A DNA stretch of 64,000 nucleotides from Actinomycetes bacterium (lineage in GTDB: Bacteria; Actinomycetota; Actinomycetes; Streptosporangiales; Streptosporangiaceae): assembly GCA_021792855.1 (NCBI GenBank), contig JAJYTW010000001.1, positions 25,371 to 89,370 on the forward strand. The letters are read 5' to 3'. Numbering within the stretch: the first letter of the stretch is position 1; each line of letters begins with the position of its first letter. Below are positions 1,414 to 62,376 of this stretch, one piece after another. The notes beneath the pieces were generated by a model, which was not told the origin of the DNA, did no database searches, and worked only from the letters and a program-made list of their open reading frames with translations. The position numbers and the translations under genes are program-made.

Positions 1414-1779
1414 ATGAACCGGCTTGGAGAGCTTGAGCGGGCCATCATGGAGGTCCTGTGGGAGTCCGACGACCCCATGACCGTCCGCCAGGTAGGTATC
1501 TGCCTCACTGACCGGGAACTGGCCCACACCACCGTCATGACGGTGCTGGACCGGCTTACCAAGAAGGGCTTCGTACGGCGGCAGCGCGCCGGGCGCGCCT
1601 GGCGGTACCGCCCGGCCGAGAGCCGCGAGGCCTACGTTGCCGAACTCATGCTGACCGCGCTCGACCAGACCGGTGACCGGCAGGCCGCGCTCACCAGGTT
1701 CGCCCGCAGCGTGTCGGGGGCTGAGGCGGCCGCGCTGCGCGCGGCACTCGAGGCCCTCGGCGGGAGCCGCAGGGACTGA
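1414..1779 (+). CDS. BlaI/MecI/CopY family transcriptional regulator
   Basis: MNRLGELERAIMEVLWESDDPMTVRQV...TTVMTVLDRLTKKGFVRRQRAGRAWRYRP; followed by an M56 peptidase gene. Confidence 0.93.
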   Translation: MNRLGELERAIMEVLWESDDPMTVRQVGICLTDRELAHTTVMTVLDRLTKKGFVRRQRAGRAWRYRPAESREAYVAELMLTALDQTGDRQAALTRFARSVSGAEAAALRAALEALGGSRRD

Positions 1780-25354: not shown

Positions 25355-25403
25355 CTGCTCGCGTCACCTCTGGTCGGCAGACTGTCTGGTCACCGGTCCC
25401 TCA

Positions 25404-25967
25404 TCAGCTGTTCCCGCCTGAGTGCGGTTCTACCGCTCGCGGCACCCCGTCAGGCGGCCCCAGGCGCAGGCCGGGACCCGGCAGGCGGTCGACTCCCGTA
25501 CGCCCAGTATCCGCCAGTAGTTCAGCCACCGGGCCGCGCCCCGGAATCCGGGCGCCCGGATCGACCTCATGCCAGGGCACCAGCACGAAGCCGCGCTCGT
25601 GCGCCCGCGGATGCGGCAGGGTCAGTTCCGGATCGGCGCTGACCTCGTCACCGCACACGATCACGTCCACGTCCAGCGTGCGCGGTCCCCAGCGCACCGT
25701 CCGCACCCGGTGCAGCGCCTGCTCGGCGGCCTGGCAGCGGGCCAGGATCGCCCGGCCGCCGAGCGCGCTGCTGGCCAGCAGCACCGCGTTCAGGTAGTCC
25801 GGCTGCTCCGGGCCGCCGACCGGGCTGGTCTGGTACACCGCCGACACCGCCGTGCAGCGCAGATCGGGATCCCCGCACAGGATGTCCACGCCGCGCTGCA
25901 GATTGCCCAGCCGGTCGCCCAGGTTGCTGCCGAGCGCCAGCACCACCCGCCGCGGCAGGTCGGTCAA
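25404..25967 (-). CDS. folK: 2-amino-4-hydroxy-6-hydroxymethyldihydropteridine diphosphokinase
   Basis: RVVLALGSNLGDRLGNLQRGVDIL...YQTSPVGGPEQPDYLNAV...RWGPRTLDVDVIVCG...LPHPRAHERGFVL; TTG start inferred. Confidence 0.92.
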   Translation of the reverse strand: MTDLPRRVVLALGSNLGDRLGNLQRGVDILCGDPDLRCTAVSAVYQTSPVGGPEQPDYLNAVLLASSALGGRAILARCQAAEQALHRVRTVRWGPRTLDVDVIVCGDEVSADPELTLPHPRAHERGFVLVPWHEVDPGARIPGRGPVAELLADTGRTGVDRLPGPGLRLGPPDGVPRAVEPHSGGNS

Positions 25968-26332
25968 GCCCGGCTCCGCCGGATGGTGACGCTCATGTCC
26001 CGGAACGGCACGGTCACCGGGGCGTGCGGCTTGTGCACGGTGATCTCCACCTCGGCGACCCGCTCGTCGGCCAGGCAGGTCGCCGCCAGCCGGCCGGCCA
26101 GGGTCTCGATCAGCGCGACCGGCTCGCCGGAGATCACATCGGACAGCCTGGCGGCCAGGGTGCCGTAGTCGGCGGTGAGCGACAGGTCGTCGGCGGCCGC
26201 CGCGGCCCGGGTGTCCACCCATAGCACGGCGTCGGCGACGAACTCCTGGCCCTGCTCGCGCTCGCTCGGCAGCACCCCGTGCCGCCCGTAGGCCCGCAGC
26301 CCGAGCAGGCTGATCCGGTCAAGCTGACTCAT
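25964..26332 (-). CDS. folB: Dihydroneopterin aldolase
   Basis: MSQLDRISLLGLRAYGRHGVLPSEREQGQEFVADAVLWVD...VEITVHKPHAPV. Confidence 0.93.
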   Translation of the reverse strand: MSQLDRISLLGLRAYGRHGVLPSEREQGQEFVADAVLWVDTRAAAAADDLSLTADYGTLAARLSDVISGEPVALIETLAGRLAATCLADERVAEVEITVHKPHAPVTVPFRDMSVTIRRSRA

Positions 26333-27203
26333 GCACGCTCTCCTCATTCCAGCGCGCGGCCACCCGGACCGCGTCGGCGTTCCCCGGCACCGCGTGCACC
26401 CGCACGCACCACGCCCCGGCGGCGGCGGCCAGTGCGGTCATCGCGACGGTCGCGTCGTCGCACTCCAGCGGCGGGCGGGGGGCGCCGGTGCCGGACGCCA
26501 GCAGCCGGCCGATGAAGCGCTTGCGGGAGGCACCGACCAGCACCGGGAACGGCCCGGCCGGGTGGTCGAGCGCGGCCAGCGCGGTCAGCCTGGCCAGCAG
26601 CGCCCAGTTGTGGCTGGGCAGCTTGGCGAATCCGAGACCAGGGTCGATGATGAGCTGGGTGGGCCGGACCCCGGCGGCCGTCAGCGCCGCGACCCGCTGC
26701 GATAGCTCGTCCCGCACCTCGGCCACGACGTCCTCATAGACAGCCAGTTCCTGCATGGTCGCGCTCGGCCCGCGCCAGTGCACCACGATGTAGGGCACTC
26801 CGGTCCGCGCGATCAGGCCGGCCATGGCCGGGTCGGCCAGGCCGCCGCTCACGTCGTTGACAATCCGGGCTCCGACCGCCAGTGCGCGCTCGGCGACGAC
26901 CGCCCGGGTGGTATCGACGCTGACCGTGATGCCTGACTGCACCAGCGCGGTCACGACCGGTTCGGTCCTGGCAAGTTCCTCGGCTTCGGTGATCCGCTCG
27001 GCACCCGGCCTGGTGGACTCACCGCCCACGTCCACGATGTCCGCGCCCTCGGCGGCAAGCTGCAAGCCGTGCGCGATCGCCGCGGTCGTGCCGAACCATC
27101 GTCCGCCATCGGAGAACGAGTCGGGCGTCACGTTGACCACGCCCATGACCAGGCACCGGGAGGCGGCCGGGAGGCCGGGCAGGCGCACTGCGGGACCGGA
27201 CAT
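26319..27203 (-). CDS. folP: Dihydropteroate synthase
   Basis: RCLVMGVVNVTPDSFSDGGRWF...VDVGGESTRPGA...VSVDTTRAVVAERAL...LIIDPGLGFAK. Confidence 0.96.
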   Translation of the reverse strand: MSGPAVRLPGLPAASRCLVMGVVNVTPDSFSDGGRWFGTTAAIAHGLQLAAEGADIVDVGGESTRPGAERITEAEELARTEPVVTALVQSGITVSVDTTRAVVAERALAVGARIVNDVSGGLADPAMAGLIARTGVPYIVVHWRGPSATMQELAVYEDVVAEVRDELSQRVAALTAAGVRPTQLIIDPGLGFAKLPSHNWALLARLTALAALDHPAGPFPVLVGASRKRFIGRLLASGTGAPRPPLECDDATVAMTALAAAAGAWCVRVHAVPGNADAVRVAARWNEESVHESA

Positions 27204-48404: not shown

Positions 48405-48481
48405 CGGGGTGTGGCGCAGCTTGGCAGCGCGCTTCGTTCGGGACGAAGAGGCCGGGAGTTCAAATCTCCCCACCCCGACCA
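48405..48481 (+). tRNA. tRNA-Pro, anticodon CGG (CCA encoded)
   Basis: CGGGGTG acceptor pairs with CACCCCG-A-CCA; anticodon arm CTTCG-TTCGGGA-CGAAG; T-arm GGGAG-TTCAAAT-CTCCC. Confidence 0.95.
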
Positions 48482-48561: not shown

Positions 48562-49722
48562 CTACCCTTCGTCGGCCTTGCGCTTGGCGAGGGCGTCTCG
48601 CGCCGCAGCCAGGTCTTCCGGTCGCGCATGCACATAGGTCTTCATGGTGAAGCTGGCGTCCGTGTGCCCGAGCCATTTGGCGATCACGTCAGGTGACACG
48701 CCCCGATGGGCCAGGTAGCTTCCCGCAGCATGGCGGCTCGCCGTATACGGCGTGATCTTCCGGACACCGGCCTGCCTCATAAGCCGGTACCAGACGCGTC
48801 GGAGCCGGTCGGGCGCGTACGGCAAGCCGAGCTCGTCGCACACGACATAGTCATCGCCCTGGTACGCCTCACCCGCGGCGAGCTTCTCTGCGGCCTGAAG
48901 TGCCTTAAATGCCTTGAGCTGGGTGACGAGAGTCCGGTCCAACGGCAGAGTCCGCTTCCCCGCTGCGGTTTTCGGCGCCTTCTCAACTGGCTTGCCGTCC
49001 ACGACTGTCCGCACGCCCTGGATGCGCAGCGTGCCCGCGGTGAGGTTCAGGTCGCGGTGCCAGCGCAGGCCGCACGCCTCTTCGGGACGCAGTCCGAGGC
49101 ACTGGAGCGTGATAACGGGGGCGAGCCGGTCCCGCTCAGCGACGGCCTCGAAGCGGGCAGTCTCCTCGTCACTCCACAGTTCGTGTGCGGGTGCGGCCTG
49201 CTTTGGCCGCTTGACGCGCCTGCACGGGTTATAAGCGATGAGCCGCTCATCGAGGGCGTCGTCGAGGGCGAGCTGGAAGATGGCCAGGGTGTCGGCAATC
49301 GTCCTGGCGCTCAGCCCGGTCCCCGGCTTGCCGCCACGCCTACGGCCTTGCGTCTGCATCCACGAAACGAGACCGTCGATGTCAGTTCTTGCCAGCGACT
49401 GGAGCTTTCGGTCGCCGAGACGCTCCCGGACCGGCCGGAGGAGATGTCCGGCCTTCGCCCGAGTGGCCTCTTCAAGGTCGCGCGTATGCGCTGTTTCCCA
49501 GCCCTCAAGGTAGGCGCTGACGGTCGGGCCACCACGCGCGACGTAACGCCGCTCATGCACTTCCCGGATGATCCGGGCGTGTTCGGCGACCGCGTCCTTC
49601 CGCCGGTCGAACGAGCGATAGACCTGGAGTCGCTTGCCGCTTGGGTCGCGACCGGCGCTGACCCGAAACCAGTAGTAGGTACTGCCATCCGGTCGCGTCC
49701 CAGACTTGATCGGGTCAGGCAT
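48562..49722 (-). CDS. int: Tyrosine recombinase/integrase
   Basis: LQCLGLRPEEACGLRW...ITPYTASRHAAGSYLAHRGVSPDVIAKWLGHTDASFTMKTYVHA. Confidence 0.94.
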   Translation of the reverse strand: MPDPIKSGTRPDGSTYYWFRVSAGRDPSGKRLQVYRSFDRRKDAVAEHARIIREVHERRYVARGGPTVSAYLEGWETAHTRDLEEATRAKAGHLLRPVRERLGDRKLQSLARTDIDGLVSWMQTQGRRRGGKPGTGLSARTIADTLAIFQLALDDALDERLIAYNPCRRVKRPKQAAPAHELWSDEETARFEAVAERDRLAPVITLQCLGLRPEEACGLRWHRDLNLTAGTLRIQGVRTVVDGKPVEKAPKTAAGKRTLPLDRTLVTQLKAFKALQAAEKLAAGEAYQGDDYVVCDELGLPYAPDRLRRVWYRLMRQAGVRKITPYTASRHAAGSYLAHRGVSPDVIAKWLGHTDASFTMKTYVHARPEDLAAARDALAKRKADEG

Positions 49723-50506
49723 CAGCGGCCTCCCCGGGCCGATGCTGGCCCTCGGCACCACGCCATGCGGCTTCGGCGGCAGCTATATAGGCACGTAGTT
49801 CTGCCAGCATCGTCCTGGTGACGAGACCCCGTTGGGCCTGAAGGCTTCGCGGCGAGAGACGCTGAACGTCGCCAACCCTGCGATCCCGCTCTTCAACGTA
49901 AGTGCGATGTCCCCAGAGCGCTCGCGCAGCGACCTTCACGACTACAGGGTCGACGTTGAGTCTGCGAGCAGCATGTCGCTCAGCGTCCGTCGGCGGGTAG
50001 TAGGCCATGCGTACATCGCCGTGCGTCAAGTCCTCGGCGTAGTACCTGATGGGCGCTAGTAGTTTCTGGATCCGGTCATGCTCCGGCTGCGCGCGCTTCA
50101 GTGCATCGGCGACCACTGCGTCACCTGGAAAGTGCATCTGGATTGAGTCGCTGTCCTCAGGCACTTTGTCAACGGTCCCGTCGAGCACCGCGCGTATGGC
50201 GCCAGGAGTCATCGCCGCGCCGTCGCCAAGTTGTATCGGCTCATTGGTATCGGGTAGCAGCCTCTCTAGCGAGACCTCGAGAGCTGCACATATCAGCACG
50301 ATCTCATCGAGGCGCGGTCGGCGCAGCCCTGCTTCGAGGGATCCGACGGTGCTGGTACGCCAGCTAGTCAGGCCGTGATAACGGAACGCCCGCGCGGCGT
50401 CTTCCTGTGTCCAGCGCTTCTCCACGCGGGCCGCCGCGACGCCCTTGGCAATCAAGTCATGCATCCGCACCTGCCAATTCTGCGCACTCCCTGGTGCATG
50501 AGTCAC
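49715..50506 (-). CDS. XRE-type repressor-like protein with C-terminal extension
   Basis: AARVEKRWTQEDAARAFRYHGLTSWRTSTVGSLEAGLRRPRLDEIVLICAALEVSLERLLPD. Confidence 0.8.
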   Translation of the reverse strand: MTHAPGSAQNWQVRMHDLIAKGVAAARVEKRWTQEDAARAFRYHGLTSWRTSTVGSLEAGLRRPRLDEIVLICAALEVSLERLLPDTNEPIQLGDGAAMTPGAIRAVLDGTVDKVPEDSDSIQMHFPGDAVVADALKRAQPEHDRIQKLLAPIRYYAEDLTHGDVRMAYYPPTDAERHAARRLNVDPVVVKVAARALWGHRTYVEERDRRVGDVQRLSPRSLQAQRGLVTRTMLAELRAYIAAAEAAWRGAEGQHRPGEAADA

Positions 50507-51219: not shown

Positions 51220-51420
51220 ATGCGCGTGAGCTTGTTTGCGCCTTCGGCTCAGCGTGGGTGGTGGTGGTTCACTGGCAGGTGCCGGGTGTGCGGCTCGACG
51301 GCTTTCGGCCGGGTGCGGACCCGGGAGCAGGCCGCGGGGATCCGGCGCGCTTCCTGCGGCCACCGGGTCGAGCTGACCGTGGCCCGCGTCTACCTGGCTC
51401 CGCCCGGCGGTGAGGTATGA
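51220..51420 (+). CDS. Small Cys-rich (zinc-ribbon-like) hypothetical protein
   Basis: GWWWFTGRCRVCGSTAFGRVRTREQAAGIRRASCGHRVELTVARVYL. Confidence 0.6.
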   Translation: MRVSLFAPSAQRGWWWFTGRCRVCGSTAFGRVRTREQAAGIRRASCGHRVELTVARVYLAPPGGEV

Positions 51421-53957
51421 GGGGCGACGGTGGCGCGGCCGTCGAGCGCGTACTTGCCGCCCTGCGAGCCCACGGCAGCCGCGTCGAGGGCCGCGGCGGG
51501 TCGTGGATGGCACAGTGTCCCTCGCATGAGGACGGTACGGCCAGCCTGAGTATCACCCGCGGCGCGACCCAGCCGGTCGCCCTGGTCTGCCTGGCAGGTT
51601 GCGCGACTGATGATGTCCTCGCGGCGATCGGGCTGACCTACGCGGACGTCAGCGCGCCGGCGTCTCAGCGGGCAGACGTCTGGACGCCCGCCGGCCCGGC
51701 GGTCGCCGTGTACGACTACACCGACGAGGCAGGAAGACTGCTGTTTCAGGTGCTCCGGACGGCCGGCAAGGAGTTCCGGCAGCGCCGTCCGGATCCGGGT
51801 GCCCGCTCAGGGTGGAAGTGGTCGACCGGCGGCGTCCGGCGCGTCCTCTACCGGCTGCCGCAGGTGATCGAGGCAGTCGGCGCGGGACAGACGATCTGGA
51901 TCGCCGAGGGCGAGAAGGATGTGGAGGCTCTCGAGCGCGCCGGAGTCGTCGCGACCTGTAATCCCGGCGGTGCCGGCAAGTGGCGCGGCGAGTACGACCG
52001 GGTCCTAGCCGGGGCCGACGTCCGCATCGTCCAGGACCGCGATGAGCCCGGCCGTAAGCACGGCCTGGCCGTGGCGGAGGGCCTGCGCCGCGCCGGCTGC
52101 ACAGTCACGGTCTGCGAGGCGCTGGCCGGCAAGGACGCGACGGATCATCTGGCGGCCGGTCACTCGCTCGACAGCCTCAGCGTCGTGCAGAGCGACCCGG
52201 CGCCGCGCTCTGAGTGCGCGCCCGGCGCCGAAGCGCCCCGCGAGGGCCGCAGCCCGTCCCAGGCGACCCAAATCCGCCAGCTCGCGCATGAGCGGTACCG
52301 GCTGATCCGCGGCGACGACGGGCAGCCCTACGCTGTCGCGATCACCGGCCCGAATATCGCTCGGCCGCTGCGCGGCAAAAGCGGCCTGCGGTCCCTGCTA
52401 GCGAGGCTCTACGCGGACGCGCACCGCGGCAGCGTCCCGTCTCAGGGCGCCCTCACCGACGCCATCACCGCGCTGGAGGGAGACGCGGACGGTGCCGACT
52501 CCGAGCCGATGCACCTGCGGGTCGCGCCGTACGACGGCGGCGTCGTCCTGGACCTCGGCACCCCAGACGGCCGCTGCGTCGTTGTGCGCCCCGGGGGCGG
52601 CTGGCGCATCGAGTCCCGGTCCCCCGTCCTGTTCCGCCGCACGCAGCTCGTCGGCACCCTGCCGGACCCGCTGCACGGCTCGACGATGGACGGCCTGCGT
52701 GATCTCCTGAACGTGGACGACTACCAGTGGCCCGTCATAGTCGGCTGGCTCCTGGCCGCTCTTAAACCCGACTGCCCGCACCCGATCCTCGCCCTGCTCG
52801 GCGAGCAGGGTACCGCCAAGTCGTCCGCCGCGCGGATGCTGATGCTCCTCATAGATGCCTCGCCCGCGCCGCTCCGGTCGCCGCCGCGTGACCTGAAAAA
52901 CTGGGCCGTTCAGGCGGCTGCGTCGTGGACGGTATGCCTCGACAACGTCAGCACCATCCCGCCGTGGCTTTCAGACACTCTCTGCAAGGCGGTCACGGGT
53001 GACGGGCTGGTGGACCGGGCACTGTTCAGTGATGGCGACGTCCACGTCCTCGCATTCAAGCGCGTGGTGGCACTGACGGGCATTGACACAGGCGCGCTGC
53101 GCGGCGACCTAGCCGAGCGTCTCCTCCCGGTGGACCTGGCGCGCATCGGAGACGAGTCGCGGCGCGCCGAGGAGTCGGTCGCGGCGGCCTACGCTGACGC
53201 CCGCCCCGGCGCGCTCGGCGCGCTCCTCACCCTCCTGAGCGACGTCCTCGGCAGGCTGCCTGCGATCAGCCTGGACCGCATGCCGCGGATGGCCGACTTC
53301 ACCCGGGTGCTGGCGGCGCTGGATGAGGTGACGGGGTGGGAGTCCCGGGCGGCCTACGAGCGTACGGCCGAGGATGTCGCCGAGTCCGTCATCGGCTCGG
53401 ATCAGTTCGCCGACGCCGTACGGCACCTGCTGGATCGGCTCGACGGCGAATGGGAGGGCACCACCAGTGAGCTGCTCGGCCATATAACGCCGGAAAAGCC
53501 TCCGAGGTCGTGGCCTGGCAGCGCGCAGGCCGCGCGGGGTGAGCTGCGGAGGGTTGCGCCCGCGCTCAGGCGCCAGGGCTACGTTATCGAGCCGCTGCCC
53601 CGGACCAGCAGGTCGCGTCCCTGGCGGCTGGCTCCACCACCTCACAACGAGGGCGACCATGAGGGCGAGAGTAGCCGTCGTACATCGTCATCATCGTCAC
53701 CATCGTCACTCACCCCCGCTGACCTGCCCGAACTCAGTGACGATCCCGGTGACGATGCTGTGACGATGCTGCCCGGCGCGTCCCCATCGTCACACCCATC
53801 GTCACCCCGCCGACCTGCCCGCGACCTGCGGAAACAGCCGGCCCGTGACGATGGTGACGATGGTGACGATGGCACGCAGCCATTCTCCGCACCGCCGGGC
53901 GGCATGCGCGGCGCGTCCTTCTGGGCATCCGCCGATGGCGAGGAGTGGTCGGCGTGA
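51417..53957 (+). CDS. Primase (CHC2-like Zn finger + Toprim) fused to D5-like helicase/ATPase
   Basis: MAQCPSHEDGTASLSITRGATQPVALVCLAGCATDDVLAAIGL; TIWIAEGEKDVEALERAG...VRIVQDRDEPGRKH (Toprim); ILALLGEQGTAKSSAARML (Walker A-like). Confidence 0.85.
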   Translation: MRGDGGAAVERVLAALRAHGSRVEGRGGSWMAQCPSHEDGTASLSITRGATQPVALVCLAGCATDDVLAAIGLTYADVSAPASQRADVWTPAGPAVAVYDYTDEAGRLLFQVLRTAGKEFRQRRPDPGARSGWKWSTGGVRRVLYRLPQVIEAVGAGQTIWIAEGEKDVEALERAGVVATCNPGGAGKWRGEYDRVLAGADVRIVQDRDEPGRKHGLAVAEGLRRAGCTVTVCEALAGKDATDHLAAGHSLDSLSVVQSDPAPRSECAPGAEAPREGRSPSQATQIRQLAHERYRLIRGDDGQPYAVAITGPNIARPLRGKSGLRSLLARLYADAHRGSVPSQGALTDAITALEGDADGADSEPMHLRVAPYDGGVVLDLGTPDGRCVVVRPGGGWRIESRSPVLFRRTQLVGTLPDPLHGSTMDGLRDLLNVDDYQWPVIVGWLLAALKPDCPHPILALLGEQGTAKSSAARMLMLLIDASPAPLRSPPRDLKNWAVQAAASWTVCLDNVSTIPPWLSDTLCKAVTGDGLVDRALFSDGDVHVLAFKRVVALTGIDTGALRGDLAERLLPVDLARIGDESRRAEESVAAAYADARPGALGALLTLLSDVLGRLPAISLDRMPRMADFTRVLAALDEVTGWESRAAYERTAEDVAESVIGSDQFADAVRHLLDRLDGEWEGTTSELLGHITPEKPPRSWPGSAQAARGELRRVAPALRRQGYVIEPLPRTSRSRPWRLAPPPHNEGDHEGESSRRTSSSSSPSSLTPADLPELSDDPGDDAVTMLPGASPSSHPSSPRRPARDLRKQPARDDGDDGDDGTQPFSAPPGGMRGASFWASADGEEWSA
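53683..53871. repeat. Cluster of 11 copies of 9-mer CATCGTCAC/GTGACGATG in alternating orientation blocks
   Basis: Forward 53683, 53692, 53701; reverse 53737, 53749, 53760; forward 53785, 53797; reverse 53845, 53854, 53863 (first and fourth have one 3'-terminal mismatch). Confidence 0.95.
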
Positions 53958-54310: not shown

Positions 54311-54558
54311 GCACCGGCCACCTTCGGCTCGACGACGCCACCAGGCGGCGCCTGCTCGAACTCCGCGGCCTCGACCACCTGCTCCGCGAGCCCGGCCACC
54401 AGCCCTTCTGCTCGGACGGTCCCTCGAACCCGGCCAGCACCAGCGCTTCATCGTACAGCGGACCCGCAGCCGCCTTCTGGCCTACTATGATCCTGAATCC
54501 GTCTAATCTCCTGAAATTAGCTAATAGGTATTTTCGGACATTTTTGGGGAACTGGTGA
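54307..54558 (+). CDS. Hypothetical protein
   Basis: Start overlaps upstream stop (ATGA); MSTGHLRLDDATRRRLLELRGLDHLLREPG... Confidence 0.5.
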   Translation: MSTGHLRLDDATRRRLLELRGLDHLLREPGHQPFCSDGPSNPASTSASSYSGPAAAFWPTMILNPSNLLKLANRYFRTFLGNW

Positions 54559-55463
54559 TGTTTGTGGCGCACCGGAATGCGGTCGACAAAGAGGGCTGGA
54601 CGGTCTTCGGGTTCGTACTCCTTATTGGAACGCTCGTCTTGCCATTTTTTATTTTCCGCCAGAATGGCATGATCTCGGCCACCGGATGGATCGTCGAAGT
54701 TACATGGCTCGCCGTGATTTCTGGATTGATCATATTCCTGGCGCGCAATTCAATTCGCAAGCGCAGAGTAGAAGCCGCAACAAGAGGGATCACCTTCACG
54801 TCAGGCGGAGTGCCTCGAACTGTCTACAATGTCATCAACCCGGAGCTCTCTGCCAACAGCAGGAGTCTCACTAAAAATCTCACGGCAAGCCAGATTGTGA
54901 GAACTTCCGCGCTTGATACGAGCAGCAAGGTGACATTGTCGCGGGCGCAGGACGCAATTAAATACGTGCTCACCTCCACAGTCTATTCCGAGAACCAGCT
55001 CGAGCGCGCCGCGGCGGAGCCGACGTTGCGAAGGCATGAGTGGTCTATAGCCGTTGACCTGCGTGACATAACAAGCCTTCGCAGAGAGCAGCTTAGGATG
55101 CGGCAGTTGCATGCCGGCAGTAATCCGGGTCCGCTAACCGGGGCAGTGATTAACGCCCAGGACGACGCCCTGCGGCAGAAACTGGCTAAGATAGAGTCAA
55201 TTGTCGACGCCATGGAGAAGTACGCCGGTCACGTCAGGGCTGCCGACCAGGCACGCCAGGACTGGAAGTCTGCGGCAGAGATTTCGAAGCTTAACGCGAA
55301 ATTCACAGATCTCGTCGCAGGAACTGCAGCTGATGAGTATTACCTGCGGGAGGCGGAGGACATGACACATGAAGCGAGCGTCTTCCAACAGTCACTTGCG
55401 CGGGCAAATTTCGCAGCTCGATCCTTGTTCTTGCCTGACACGCTTACGGATTATTCTGACTAG
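54555..55463 (+). CDS. Two-TM membrane protein with long alpha-helical C-terminal domain; locally lower GC
   Basis: WTVFGFVLLIGTLVLPFFIF and GWIVEVTWLAVISGLIIFLA, then a charged helical region (REQLRMRQLHAG...KLAKIESIVDAMEKYAGHV). Confidence 0.75.
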   Translation: MMFVAHRNAVDKEGWTVFGFVLLIGTLVLPFFIFRQNGMISATGWIVEVTWLAVISGLIIFLARNSIRKRRVEAATRGITFTSGGVPRTVYNVINPELSANSRSLTKNLTASQIVRTSALDTSSKVTLSRAQDAIKYVLTSTVYSENQLERAAAEPTLRRHEWSIAVDLRDITSLRREQLRMRQLHAGSNPGPLTGAVINAQDDALRQKLAKIESIVDAMEKYAGHVRAADQARQDWKSAAEISKLNAKFTDLVAGTAADEYYLREAEDMTHEASVFQQSLARANFAARSLFLPDTLTDYSD

Positions 55464-59574: not shown

Positions 59575-60204
59575 TCAGCCGTCGCCCCGGCCGGTGCCGC
59601 TTGCCTCGTCGCGGATCCTGGCGATGTCCAGATGCCGGTACAGCGTCGACCGGCTGACGCCGATCACTTCGGCGATCCTGGTCGCGCTCATATCCGGGTG
59701 CTCGGTCGCCAGTAGCGTGGCGGTCGCGATCTGGTCCCGGGTGATGCTCGGCCCGCGCTTGGGGAGTGTTCCCCCGTGCCTGATCTTCGCGGCAGCCAGT
59801 CCCTCGCGCGTCCGCTCGGCCGTCATCGCGGCCTCCCATTCAGCCATCGCGGACGCGATGTGAAAGAAGAATTTGCCGGTCGGCGTGGTCGTATCTACCG
59901 AGCCGTCGAGTGCCTGGAGCTGGACGCCGCGCTCGCCGAGCAGGTTGATGATGTCCACGAGGTTGACCAGGGACCGGCCGAGCCGGTCCAGCTTCGTGAC
60001 GACCAGAACGTCGCCGTCGCGGAGCACCGCGAGGCAGCGGTCCCACGCTGGCCGGCTCCGCAGCTTGCCGCTCTGGCCGTCGTCGATGTAGATGTTTCGC
60101 TCGTCCACTCCGGCGGCCACGAGCCGCTGGACTTGGTTGTCAACATGTTGTGCCTTGCGGGACTTGGCCGGAGCCATGCTCACCCGCGCGTATCCAACTA
60201 GCAC
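59575..60204 (-). CDS. Serine recombinase (resolvase/invertase)
   Basis: MLVGYARVS...VVTKLDRLGRSLVNLVDIINLLGERGVQLQALDGSVDTTTPTGKFFFHIASAMAEWE...AEVIGVSRSTLYRHL. Confidence 0.95.
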   Translation of the reverse strand: MLVGYARVSMAPAKSRKAQHVDNQVQRLVAAGVDERNIYIDDGQSGKLRSRPAWDRCLAVLRDGDVLVVTKLDRLGRSLVNLVDIINLLGERGVQLQALDGSVDTTTPTGKFFFHIASAMAEWEAAMTAERTREGLAAAKIRHGGTLPKRGPSITRDQIATATLLATEHPDMSATRIAEVIGVSRSTLYRHLDIARIRDEASGTGRGDG

Positions 60205-60265: not shown

Positions 60266-61372
60266 CTAGCTCAAACTCGCGAACCACGAGTCCAACTCGT
60301 CGGCCGCGTCCTCGTCCTCGTCTGGCATCCCGCCGGTCGTGCATAGCTCGGCGCACGCGGCTCGCACGCGATCGCCCCACTCACGGCTGGCCGCGTCGGC
60401 TGCGACCACCAAGGGCTCCCAGATCTCGGCTTCCCGGTTGCCGATGCCGTCTGGCATGTCGGGGATTTCGTCGCCGAGCCCTACGAGTGCGGTCGCCGCC
60501 CAGCGTGCGAGCTGGGTCGTCAGGACCGTGGCGGCCCGGCGGGCGTCGGCGTCCCAGCGCGGTGCCCGGAAGCCCTCCGGAGCGCGCCGCATCCTGATGC
60601 GGATGCACCGGGTAATGGTCGCGGCCATGCGCCCGCCAGTCGCGGTCTCAACGGCGTCCAGGCCGGCCATCATCAGCGCCCCGAACGTCGGGATGCGGTC
60701 GACCTGGCCGCCGCGAACGCGGGCCCAGCTTGAGCCGCGGACGTAGCCATCATTGACAAGCCCTCTGAGCGCGGCTTTCCGCTCGCCGCGGCCGAACAAG
60801 ACATCGATCTCATCGAGTGCGAGCGTCGCGTGCAGCTTGCCGACCGCGTGAGCGATGGCCGGCTCGGACGGCTCGGCGAAGATCTCCGGCGCCGGGCACA
60901 GCCGGGCCACGAGCCGCATGGCGTAGCTCTTGCCGCTGCCGGGCTCGGCGCTGGAGAACAGCAGCCGGGGTGAGGCCTGCCATACGAGCGTCCCGGTGGC
61001 ATCGCGGGCGTGCGCATGGGCGATCCAGGCGGTAGCCGCAACGAGCGCTGCCTCCGATGGCCAGACGGCATAGTGGGCGAGCAGCCCATAGACATAGGTC
61101 AGGAGCCGGTCGCCGTCCATCGCCGGGGCGCTGCCGGCCCGCGCGACCGTGCCCGGCTGCCGGACGGCCACGGTGCCGGTCAGCACCGGGACGCTGGCCG
61201 CGGCGAGCGCGTCGGCAGCCGGTCGCGCTGCCCGCTCGGCCCGGCGCTCGGCTGCCCGCTGGCGCAGCTCGGCGAGCCGGTCAGCACCGGCCGCGCGCTT
61301 GGCCAGGTCGCCGCAGTCTTCGCAGACGGGCTTGCCGTTTCCTGGTCGCTCCGGGTGCCGGCAGCCGGTCAC
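60266..61372 (-). CDS. DUF3631-domain ATPase-like protein
   Basis: GCRHPERPGNGKPVCEDCGDL; LLFSSAEPGSGKSYAMRLVARLCPAPEIFAEPSEPAIAHAVGKLHATLALDEIDVLFGRGERKAALRGLVNDGY. Confidence 0.85.
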   Translation of the reverse strand: MTGCRHPERPGNGKPVCEDCGDLAKRAAGADRLAELRQRAAERRAERAARPAADALAAASVPVLTGTVAVRQPGTVARAGSAPAMDGDRLLTYVYGLLAHYAVWPSEAALVAATAWIAHAHARDATGTLVWQASPRLLFSSAEPGSGKSYAMRLVARLCPAPEIFAEPSEPAIAHAVGKLHATLALDEIDVLFGRGERKAALRGLVNDGYVRGSSWARVRGGQVDRIPTFGALMMAGLDAVETATGGRMAATITRCIRIRMRRAPEGFRAPRWDADARRAATVLTTQLARWAATALVGLGDEIPDMPDGIGNREAEIWEPLVVAADAASREWGDRVRAACAELCTTGGMPDEDEDAADELDSWFASLS

Positions 61373-61506
61373 GACGTCCCGTCCAGGTCTGCGAACAGGT
61401 CCGGCGTCCCGCACGGATCCGGCTTGGCGAACAGGCTGGTCTGTACCGGCTTCGCGGTCGTGTCGAATGCGTCCGGCGTCATCATCAGCCAGTCGGTCTC
61501 GGTCAT
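61369..61506 (-). CDS. 45-aa protein MTETDWLMMTPDAFDTTAKPVQTSLFAKPDPCGTPDLFADLDGTS
   Basis: Not in the ORF track; strong GC3 bias; its TGA overlaps the downstream GTG (GTGA). Confidence 0.65.
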   Translation of the reverse strand: MTETDWLMMTPDAFDTTAKPVQTSLFAKPDPCGTPDLFADLDGTS

Positions 61507-61507
61507 T

Positions 61508-61936
61508 GCGGTATGCCTCCTCGGCGGCGCTCACCTGGCGCCGGTAGTCCGTGATCGTGACTCGCGGATTGCTCCGCCAGAACTCCAGAAGTTCCCAGCT
61601 CGCCCAGTGCTCGGCCCGGTCGGCAGGTCCCGACCAGAGCGACCACGGATCGATGCCGCGCGCCCGGCCGGCCGCGTTGACCAGGTAGCCGTTGGTAGCC
61701 GACTCGGCGGCCATGAATTGCGCGTAGGCGGCATCCCGCCATTCCCGCGCGACCGGGTCCTGGCGCCGGCGCTGCCGTGCCCGGTCGGCTGCCCTGCGAC
61801 GCTGCTCGGCCCGCGCTACGTCGCCGAGCACAGTCCCGGCCAGGTCGGCGAGCGCGGCATCGTCCATCACGCGCATCTCGGCCGCCAGGTCCGGGTCGCC
61901 AGCCAGATCGACCGGCTCGGCCAGCAGCGCGGTCAC
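61508..61936 (-). CDS. Actinobacterial mobile-element hypothetical protein (true 3' end uncertain; same frame continues into the DUF3631 ORF)
   Basis: VTALLAEPVDLAGDPDLAAEMRVMDDAAL...FMAAESATNGYLVNAAGRARGIDPWSLWSGPADRAEHWASWELLEFWRSNPRVTITDYRRQV. Confidence 0.6.
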
Positions 61937-62376
61937 CGGAGCGCCGCCGCGGCGTCGCAGTAGCCGTCGTAGTACCGCTCGCCGAGCGCTTCGCGGAGCG
62001 GCGCGTTCGCGGCGGTGGTCGGCTCGGTCTGGCCGAGCGCCGTCATAAGCCCCGCGGAGTCGTCGTCGGCCAGGTCTAGTGCCCGTCGCCCGGCGTAGGC
62101 ATCCACCGACCCGAGCCGGTATGCCTGGCCGAGCAGGTCGGCGACGGCATCGGCAGGCTCGGCGGCCACGCGCCCGGCCCGGACGCGCTCGCAGTCGCAC
62201 GCCATGCAGAACGGCGCGCCGTCGTAATCGATCGAAGCGCTGCCGTGCCGCGGGCATCCGACGCTCATGGCGTCGATCTCGGCATCGGTCGCGCCGTCCG
62301 CGCGCCACAGTCGGACGCTGCGCTGCCACTCGCTAGCGGACATCGTCCGCACGCCGGGCGTAGAGTCTTGTGCCAT
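61933..62376 (-). CDS. Hypothetical protein, first gene of the leftward replication-like operon
   Basis: MAQDSTPGVRTMSASEWQRSVRLWRADGATDAEIDAMSVGCPRHGSASIDYDGAPFCMACDCERV; GTGA overlap with the next gene. Confidence 0.7.
   Translation of the reverse strand: MAQDSTPGVRTMSASEWQRSVRLWRADGATDAEIDAMSVGCPRHGSASIDYDGAPFCMACDCERVRAGRVAAEPADAVADLLGQAYRLGSVDAYAGRRALDLADDDSAGLMTALGQTEPTTAANAPLREALGERYYDGYCDAAAALR

Follow-up and report, generated by a model that had tools for sequence, protein, structure and literature searches.

The linear plasmid pSLA2 carries iterons that are internal to its rep1 gene. In the O-gene origins of lambda and Stx phages, the iterons lie within the initiator gene and encode a protein spacer, to which extra iterons add residues (PMC7466680). 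SaPI Rep and SCCmec Cch2 are initiator helicases whose C-terminal DNA-binding domain recognises short repeats located directly downstream of the gene (PMC7581432). In PLE satellites, RepA and origin specificity have swapped together, repeatedly, between related elements (PMC8263062). For Streptomyces plasmids, one report describes the rep/iteron loci of pFP1 and pFP11 as bound by their Rep proteins, and replication of pWTY27 requires repA, repB and a 300-bp iteron segment on which RepA leaves footprints (PMC3583192).

Here we analyzed a window of 64 kb, meaning the whole stretch of DNA presented above at its full length. We propose, with a probability of roughly 85%, that an array of 9-mers (53683-53871) serves as iteron origin for an integrated element next to tRNA-Pro, and that this origin is located inside the coding sequence of the element's own initiator.

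Results

A candidate initiator gene in an element beside tRNA-Pro

The features on which the description of the element relies are the following.

48405-48481: tRNA-Pro(CGG), detected with ARAGORN
48562-49761, minus strand: tyrosine integrase of the same element (Pfam PF00589), adjoining tRNA-Pro
51417-53957, plus strand: rep gene, 846 aa, recognised as an ORF with PHROG primase matches and identity to a pFP11 protein
53349-53663, plus strand: predicted winged-helix DNA-binding domain (residues 645-749; model pLDDT 84), just 5' of the array

Judged by its gene content, the element is an integrated one, marked by the integrase, an HTH regulator and tRNA-Pro(CGG). Its right end is not visible because the contig stops at the window end, so that it could be a conjugative element, a prophage or a satellite; a search of the window for a further att copy of the tRNA end gave none. 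A resolvase/invertase gene (59575-60204, minus strand) lies inside or beside the element. Also on the minus strand, a 687-aa ORF (60266-62329) has two recognisable regions, one for phage head morphogenesis (residues 172-271) and one of DUF3631 (residues 580-666), DUF3631 being a marker of the RepAM initiators of actinomycete conjugative elements (PMC3218068).

The rep product comprises a Toprim-type primase N-terminal part, a helicase resembling pFP11 RepA, a winged helix and a low-complexity tail. For the N-terminal part, a match to phage DNA primases was obtained (PHROG 6088, E=6e-31). Pfam yielded no match for the protein at E 0.001 and weak matches to Toprim and T7-primase at E 0.01-0.02. 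Residues 281-724 are 45.2% identical to the pFP11 protein encoded at 25356-27077. In the model, the winged helix has the order helix-helix-strand-helix-helix-strand-strand; a PDB fold search with this model returned no significant match, and nothing was found by a PDB sequence search. The whole-protein model, built from three sequences, was poor (pLDDT 42, with very low confidence after residue 744) and serves only as a hint that the Rep tail may be disordered.

Opposed blocks of eleven 9-mers within the 3' end of rep

An exact search for CATCGTCAC/GTGACGATG over the whole 64-kb window recovered nine 9-mers, all within 53692-53871, compared with a mean of 0.75 copies and a maximum of 3 in shuffles of the window. 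Two further copies, CATCGTCAT at 53683 and GTGACGATC at 53737, depart from the 9-mer by a single outer base, giving a total of 11 copies in 189 bp inside the 3' end of the rep gene. The array is organized as follows.

53683-53709, plus strand: forward iteron block 1, three tandem 9-mers at 53683, 53692 and 53701, the first with one mismatch
53721-53818, plus strand: two GACCTGC boxes (53721 and 53812), each array half having one between its forward and reverse blocks
53737-53768, minus strand: reverse iteron block 1, copies at 53737 (one mismatch), 53749 and 53760 (other frame)
53785-53805, plus strand: forward iteron block 2, copies at 53785 and 53797
53845-53871, minus strand: reverse iteron block 2, three tandem exact 9-mers at 53845, 53854 and 53863

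This arrangement bears out the preliminary description of the locus, which had listed eleven 9-mers in forward (F) and reverse (R) blocks FFF RRR FF RRR; nine of them are exact and two have one mismatch. Forward block 1 pairs with the last reverse block as an inverted repeat of 27 nt, 96% complementary. The two orientations had also been placed in the same reading frame. This is correct for 10 of the 11 copies, which share one frame, and incorrect for the reverse copy at 53760, which is read in another and encodes V-T-M instead of D-D-G. A search of the 4.7-Mb assembly detected no paired 9-mer copies outside the array. GACCTGC boxes also occur at equivalent sites in the nearest relative, L006, at 6302 and 6392, in both array halves.

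The array is constrained as DNA

The 9-mers had been proposed to function at the DNA level. They might instead be a by-product of the low-complexity Ser/Asp-rich tail, generated by slippage or maintained by selection on the protein, with no role as DNA. Inside a block the copies do recur in tandem every 9 bp, a pattern expected of slippage, and the tail peptide of L006 is also similar; slippage, however, cannot yield inverted copies. We then resampled the coding sequence over 20,000 trials, keeping the peptide fixed and drawing synonymous codons from the rest of the rep gene. The resampled sequences contained a mean of 0.19 exact 9-mers and at most 3, and none of the 20,000 reached the observed 9. 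The copy at 53760 likewise speaks against a by-product of the tail and strengthens the DNA-level argument, since it lies in the other reading frame.

L006, whose protein is 68% identical to the window Rep, retains 10 of the 11 copies in the same order (FFF RR FF RRR), the third reverse copy being degenerate. In the ten copies that can be aligned, the window and L006 differ at 5 of 90 bases, each time at the first or last position of the 9-mer. In the gene body, third-position identity is 0.49 and about 50% of codons match at identical residues, with the same codon used for 9 of 25 serines and 27 of 41 aspartates; within the ten aligned iterons, the Ser/Asp codons are the same in 20 cases out of 20. 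The preliminary description had named as contrary evidence a homologue that keeps the peptide and loses the 9-mer through synonymous changes. We looked for this case in L006, the sole relative with the motif, and found the opposite. The array is constrained as DNA, and neither chance nor repetition of the peptide explains the 9-mers. The proposal of DNA-level function is supported by the resampling and by codon conservation in L006, as well as by the concerted array replacement described below.

Arrays of different sequence recur at the 3' end of related rep genes

With the helicase part as query, we searched 151 genomes of the same order and found the helicase in 27. In the clearest loci, the ORF contains a mixed-orientation array that occupies roughly the stretch from 500 to 130 bases ahead of the stop, and each locus has its own 8-9-mer: AGCGTCCA in L201 (11 copies), AGCGTCAC in L207 (8 copies), CAGCGTCC in L208, AGCACCCG in L205, L211 and L225, AGCCTCCG in L202 and others, and CAGCACCC also in L205 (9 copies). 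Weaker members of the family have arrays only slightly above background, and no array above background was detected in the helicase relatives L200, L206, L212, L213 and L224 or in the plasmids L229 and L230.

Beyond the array, the frame of most helicase relatives runs on into a C-terminal zinc ribbon of the CxxC type, which is lost in the window rep and partly kept in L006. Since the frame continues through the array into the zinc ribbon, the array appears to encode a linker that is free in sequence but kept in frame. The low-complexity tail had been regarded as a by-product of the origin; we revise this to a linker whose frame is maintained and beyond which most relatives have the zinc ribbon. 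In a tree of the helicase domain with 31 rows, the array has the in-ORF position in 24, and the in/out label requires 3 changes. One six-row clade contains a mixture of iteron types, and L201 and L225 are sister rows with different iterons.

The array is located 3' of the stop in the plasmid homologues L228, L231 and L235 and in the chromosomal locus L223, and several hundred bases after the helicase gene in pFP11 (L114), L115 and L116. In pFP11 it consists of 9 copies of AGGGACGC. The rep gene and iterons of pFP11 studied in the literature are presumably those found here, judging from a later paper and from their position. That the arrays of plasmid relatives lie outside any rep coding sequence is a further argument against a by-product of the tail.

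We also scanned Toprim-primase loci over roughly 7 kb each, requiring an array of 6 or more copies. Most loci had no array by this strict criterion over that span. Of the 19 that had an array of at least 6 copies, 16 carried it where the rep genes end or slightly beyond, 1.7-2.3 kb downstream of the primase start; in the other three (L024, L126 and L128) it lay upstream.

Short-repeat arrays can also be centromeres. The array could thus be a partition centromere bound by a ParB-like protein, encoded by the element or by a plasmid, with the proximity to rep incidental; pFP11-type plasmids do have parA within about 1.5-2 kb of their array. Yet the element genes that we examined in the window included neither parA nor parB, the array goes with the rep gene and not with par genes across loci, and the pFP11 iterons are reported to be Rep-bound (PMC3583192). 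We consider a centromere improbable and retain the reading as an iteron origin.

Several other repeat sets were observed. In the Clostridiales-type loci L022, L023, L024 and L050, 5-6 copies of CAAGATGG in direct orientation lie close to the start of the primase gene or ahead of it, possibly the upstream iteron set of another clade. In L126 (4579-4646) and L128 (4404-4595), ACAGAGAC direct repeats and palindromic TCGCGAGA repeats lie upstream of the Toprim primase genes. GGGAACCAC/GTGGTTCC repeats were seen by eye in L062 at about 1420-1560 (minus strand), directly 3' of the primase-ATPase gene. An exact 18-mer scan of viral contigs gave mostly isolated or single-orientation copies with no apparent link to rep; the copy that it returned in L062 falls within the helicase coding region, the GGGAACCAC-like cluster 3' of that gene being a different one. 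The iterons of very distant loci appear, again by eye, to share 5'-GTG. Finally, the ATPase of the viral contig L175 is RecA-like, and here too a GTCCCAGG array lies in frame ahead of a C-terminal zinc ribbon. The same layout with a different ATPase and a different iteron suggests that it arose more than once.

Two elements of one genome differ in every iteron

Genome G213 carries two elements, L201 and L225, whose rep DNA shows 96.4% identity over the 1589 bp that precede the array and 95.2% over the 168 bp that follow it. The array of L201 contains 11 exact AGCGTCCA and no AGCACCCG, and that of L225 contains 10 exact AGCACCCG and no AGCGTCCA. Such a concerted change in both orientations is expected of DNA binding sites and not of a peptide repeat. 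Arrays that differ in concert at all copies are also hard to reconcile with a by-product of the Ser/Asp-rich tail, an explanation that we regard as having almost no chance of being correct.

The presence of different iterons in two elements of one cell could point to another role. In iteron plasmids, iterons often double in control and incompatibility, and the array might be an operator or copy-number control site through which Rep or a repressor regulates rep or pairs elements, with no part in initiation. The array is located at the 3' end of the gene, however, and not at the promoter. By analogy, pWTY27 also argues against control as the only role, since deletion of what would be the equivalent iteron segment abolished its replication (PMC3583192). 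A purely regulatory site therefore seems unlikely, and an iteron origin remains our preferred reading.

The proteins of L201 and L225 show about a dozen residue differences 5' of the array, about two of them in the winged helix. As the winged helix is almost the same despite the different iterons, either one or two residues set specificity or the iterons have another reader. The residue after RA in the motif STRAxGQLKR covaries with iteron type in most rows, L211 being an exception. We tentatively suggest, while rating the odds at somewhat less than even, that actinobacterial integrated elements include a class of coding origins in which the array is an in-frame exchangeable cassette between winged helix and zinc ribbon; specificity could then switch as one unit at the cost of only one or two changed winged-helix residues in Rep, such as the one after RA. 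If so, near-identical elements could share a cell or escape origin-directed attack.

A proposed model for initiation at the array

The iteron origin put forward in the preliminary description is supported at the level of sequence by the constraint tests, the concerted replacement and the homology to the pFP11 repA/iteron plasmids (PMC3583192). In our model, the element would excise, and Rep would then bind the 9-mers through its winged helix, assembling as facing complexes on the opposed blocks. Having melted the DNA, Rep would load itself for unwinding and priming. The 9-mers are kept as DNA sites, and the encoded peptide would be a mere linker that must stay open, its open frame allowing the C-terminal zinc ribbon to be made in most relatives.

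Against the model, the array is not adjoined by an AT-rich melting region, the nearest AT-rich 60-mer in the window being about 611 bp after it, and L199 (the same locus as L006) shows no AT trough, its lowest 60-mer having 55% GC. DnaA boxes were not above chance, and none was found near the array. The nearly unchanged winged helix of the G213 pair and the relatives in which no array was detected weigh against the model as well. At 54500-55000, about 600 bp after the array, several hundred bases have a GC content of 47-54%, down from about 70%, and this stretch could be a melting region or a foreign insert.

Discussion

An iteron origin inside its own rep gene is of a known kind, exemplified by lambda O. 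The present array is very probably the start point of replication of its own element, and in this family the array sequence varies across relatives while the gene stays open. Many relatives share the arrangement with different site sequences, which implies that the sites change together without closing the frame. These loci make up a large group of replicons that are simple to recognise and in which the rep gene itself reveals the likely origin. Natural pairs that differ mainly in iteron type open two questions to testing: by what route an initiator alters its origin specificity, and by what means a gene preserves its open frame when all copies of an embedded site are replaced. The set could also supply minimal replicons for actinobacteria that are hard to handle.

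The pFP11-type theta plasmids of Streptomyces resemble the window in having a homologous helicase-type Rep (45% identity) and mixed-orientation short iterons of similar words (GCGTCCC versus TCGTCAC), in their case 3' of the gene. They differ in having a separate Prim-Pol gene upstream and an array outside the ORF, whereas the window has a fused Toprim primase and an array within the ORF, as well as an integrated, tRNA-linked element. Since its primase part is fused at the N-terminus and there is no separate Prim-Pol directly upstream, the window locus is related to the pFP11 arrangement without being a member.

SaPI Rep and Cch2 are initiator helicases with a C-terminal DNA-binding domain, as is predicted for the window Rep. 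Their arrays lie outside the gene and they have no fused Toprim primase, unlike the window, and neither PHROG nor Pfam linked the window Rep to these families.

With lambda O-type origins, the window shares the location of iterons inside the initiator gene, the ORF at 51417-53957 spanning the array. Lambda O is not a helicase-primase, whereas the window initiator is; Pfam gave no O-type match for the window Rep, and its PHROG matches were to primases only. Lambda-type iterons adjoin an AT-rich tract, and no such tract adjoins the window array, which is further distinguished by copies of 9 bp that are set in opposed blocks and occupy the 3' end of rep. By analogy, the window array would work like an O-gene origin but is not one.

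PLE satellites, like the relatives of the window, have origin iterons that vary between related elements. In PLE the whole DNA-binding domain changes together with the origin, whereas in the G213 pair the array changes and the winged helix differs by about two residues.
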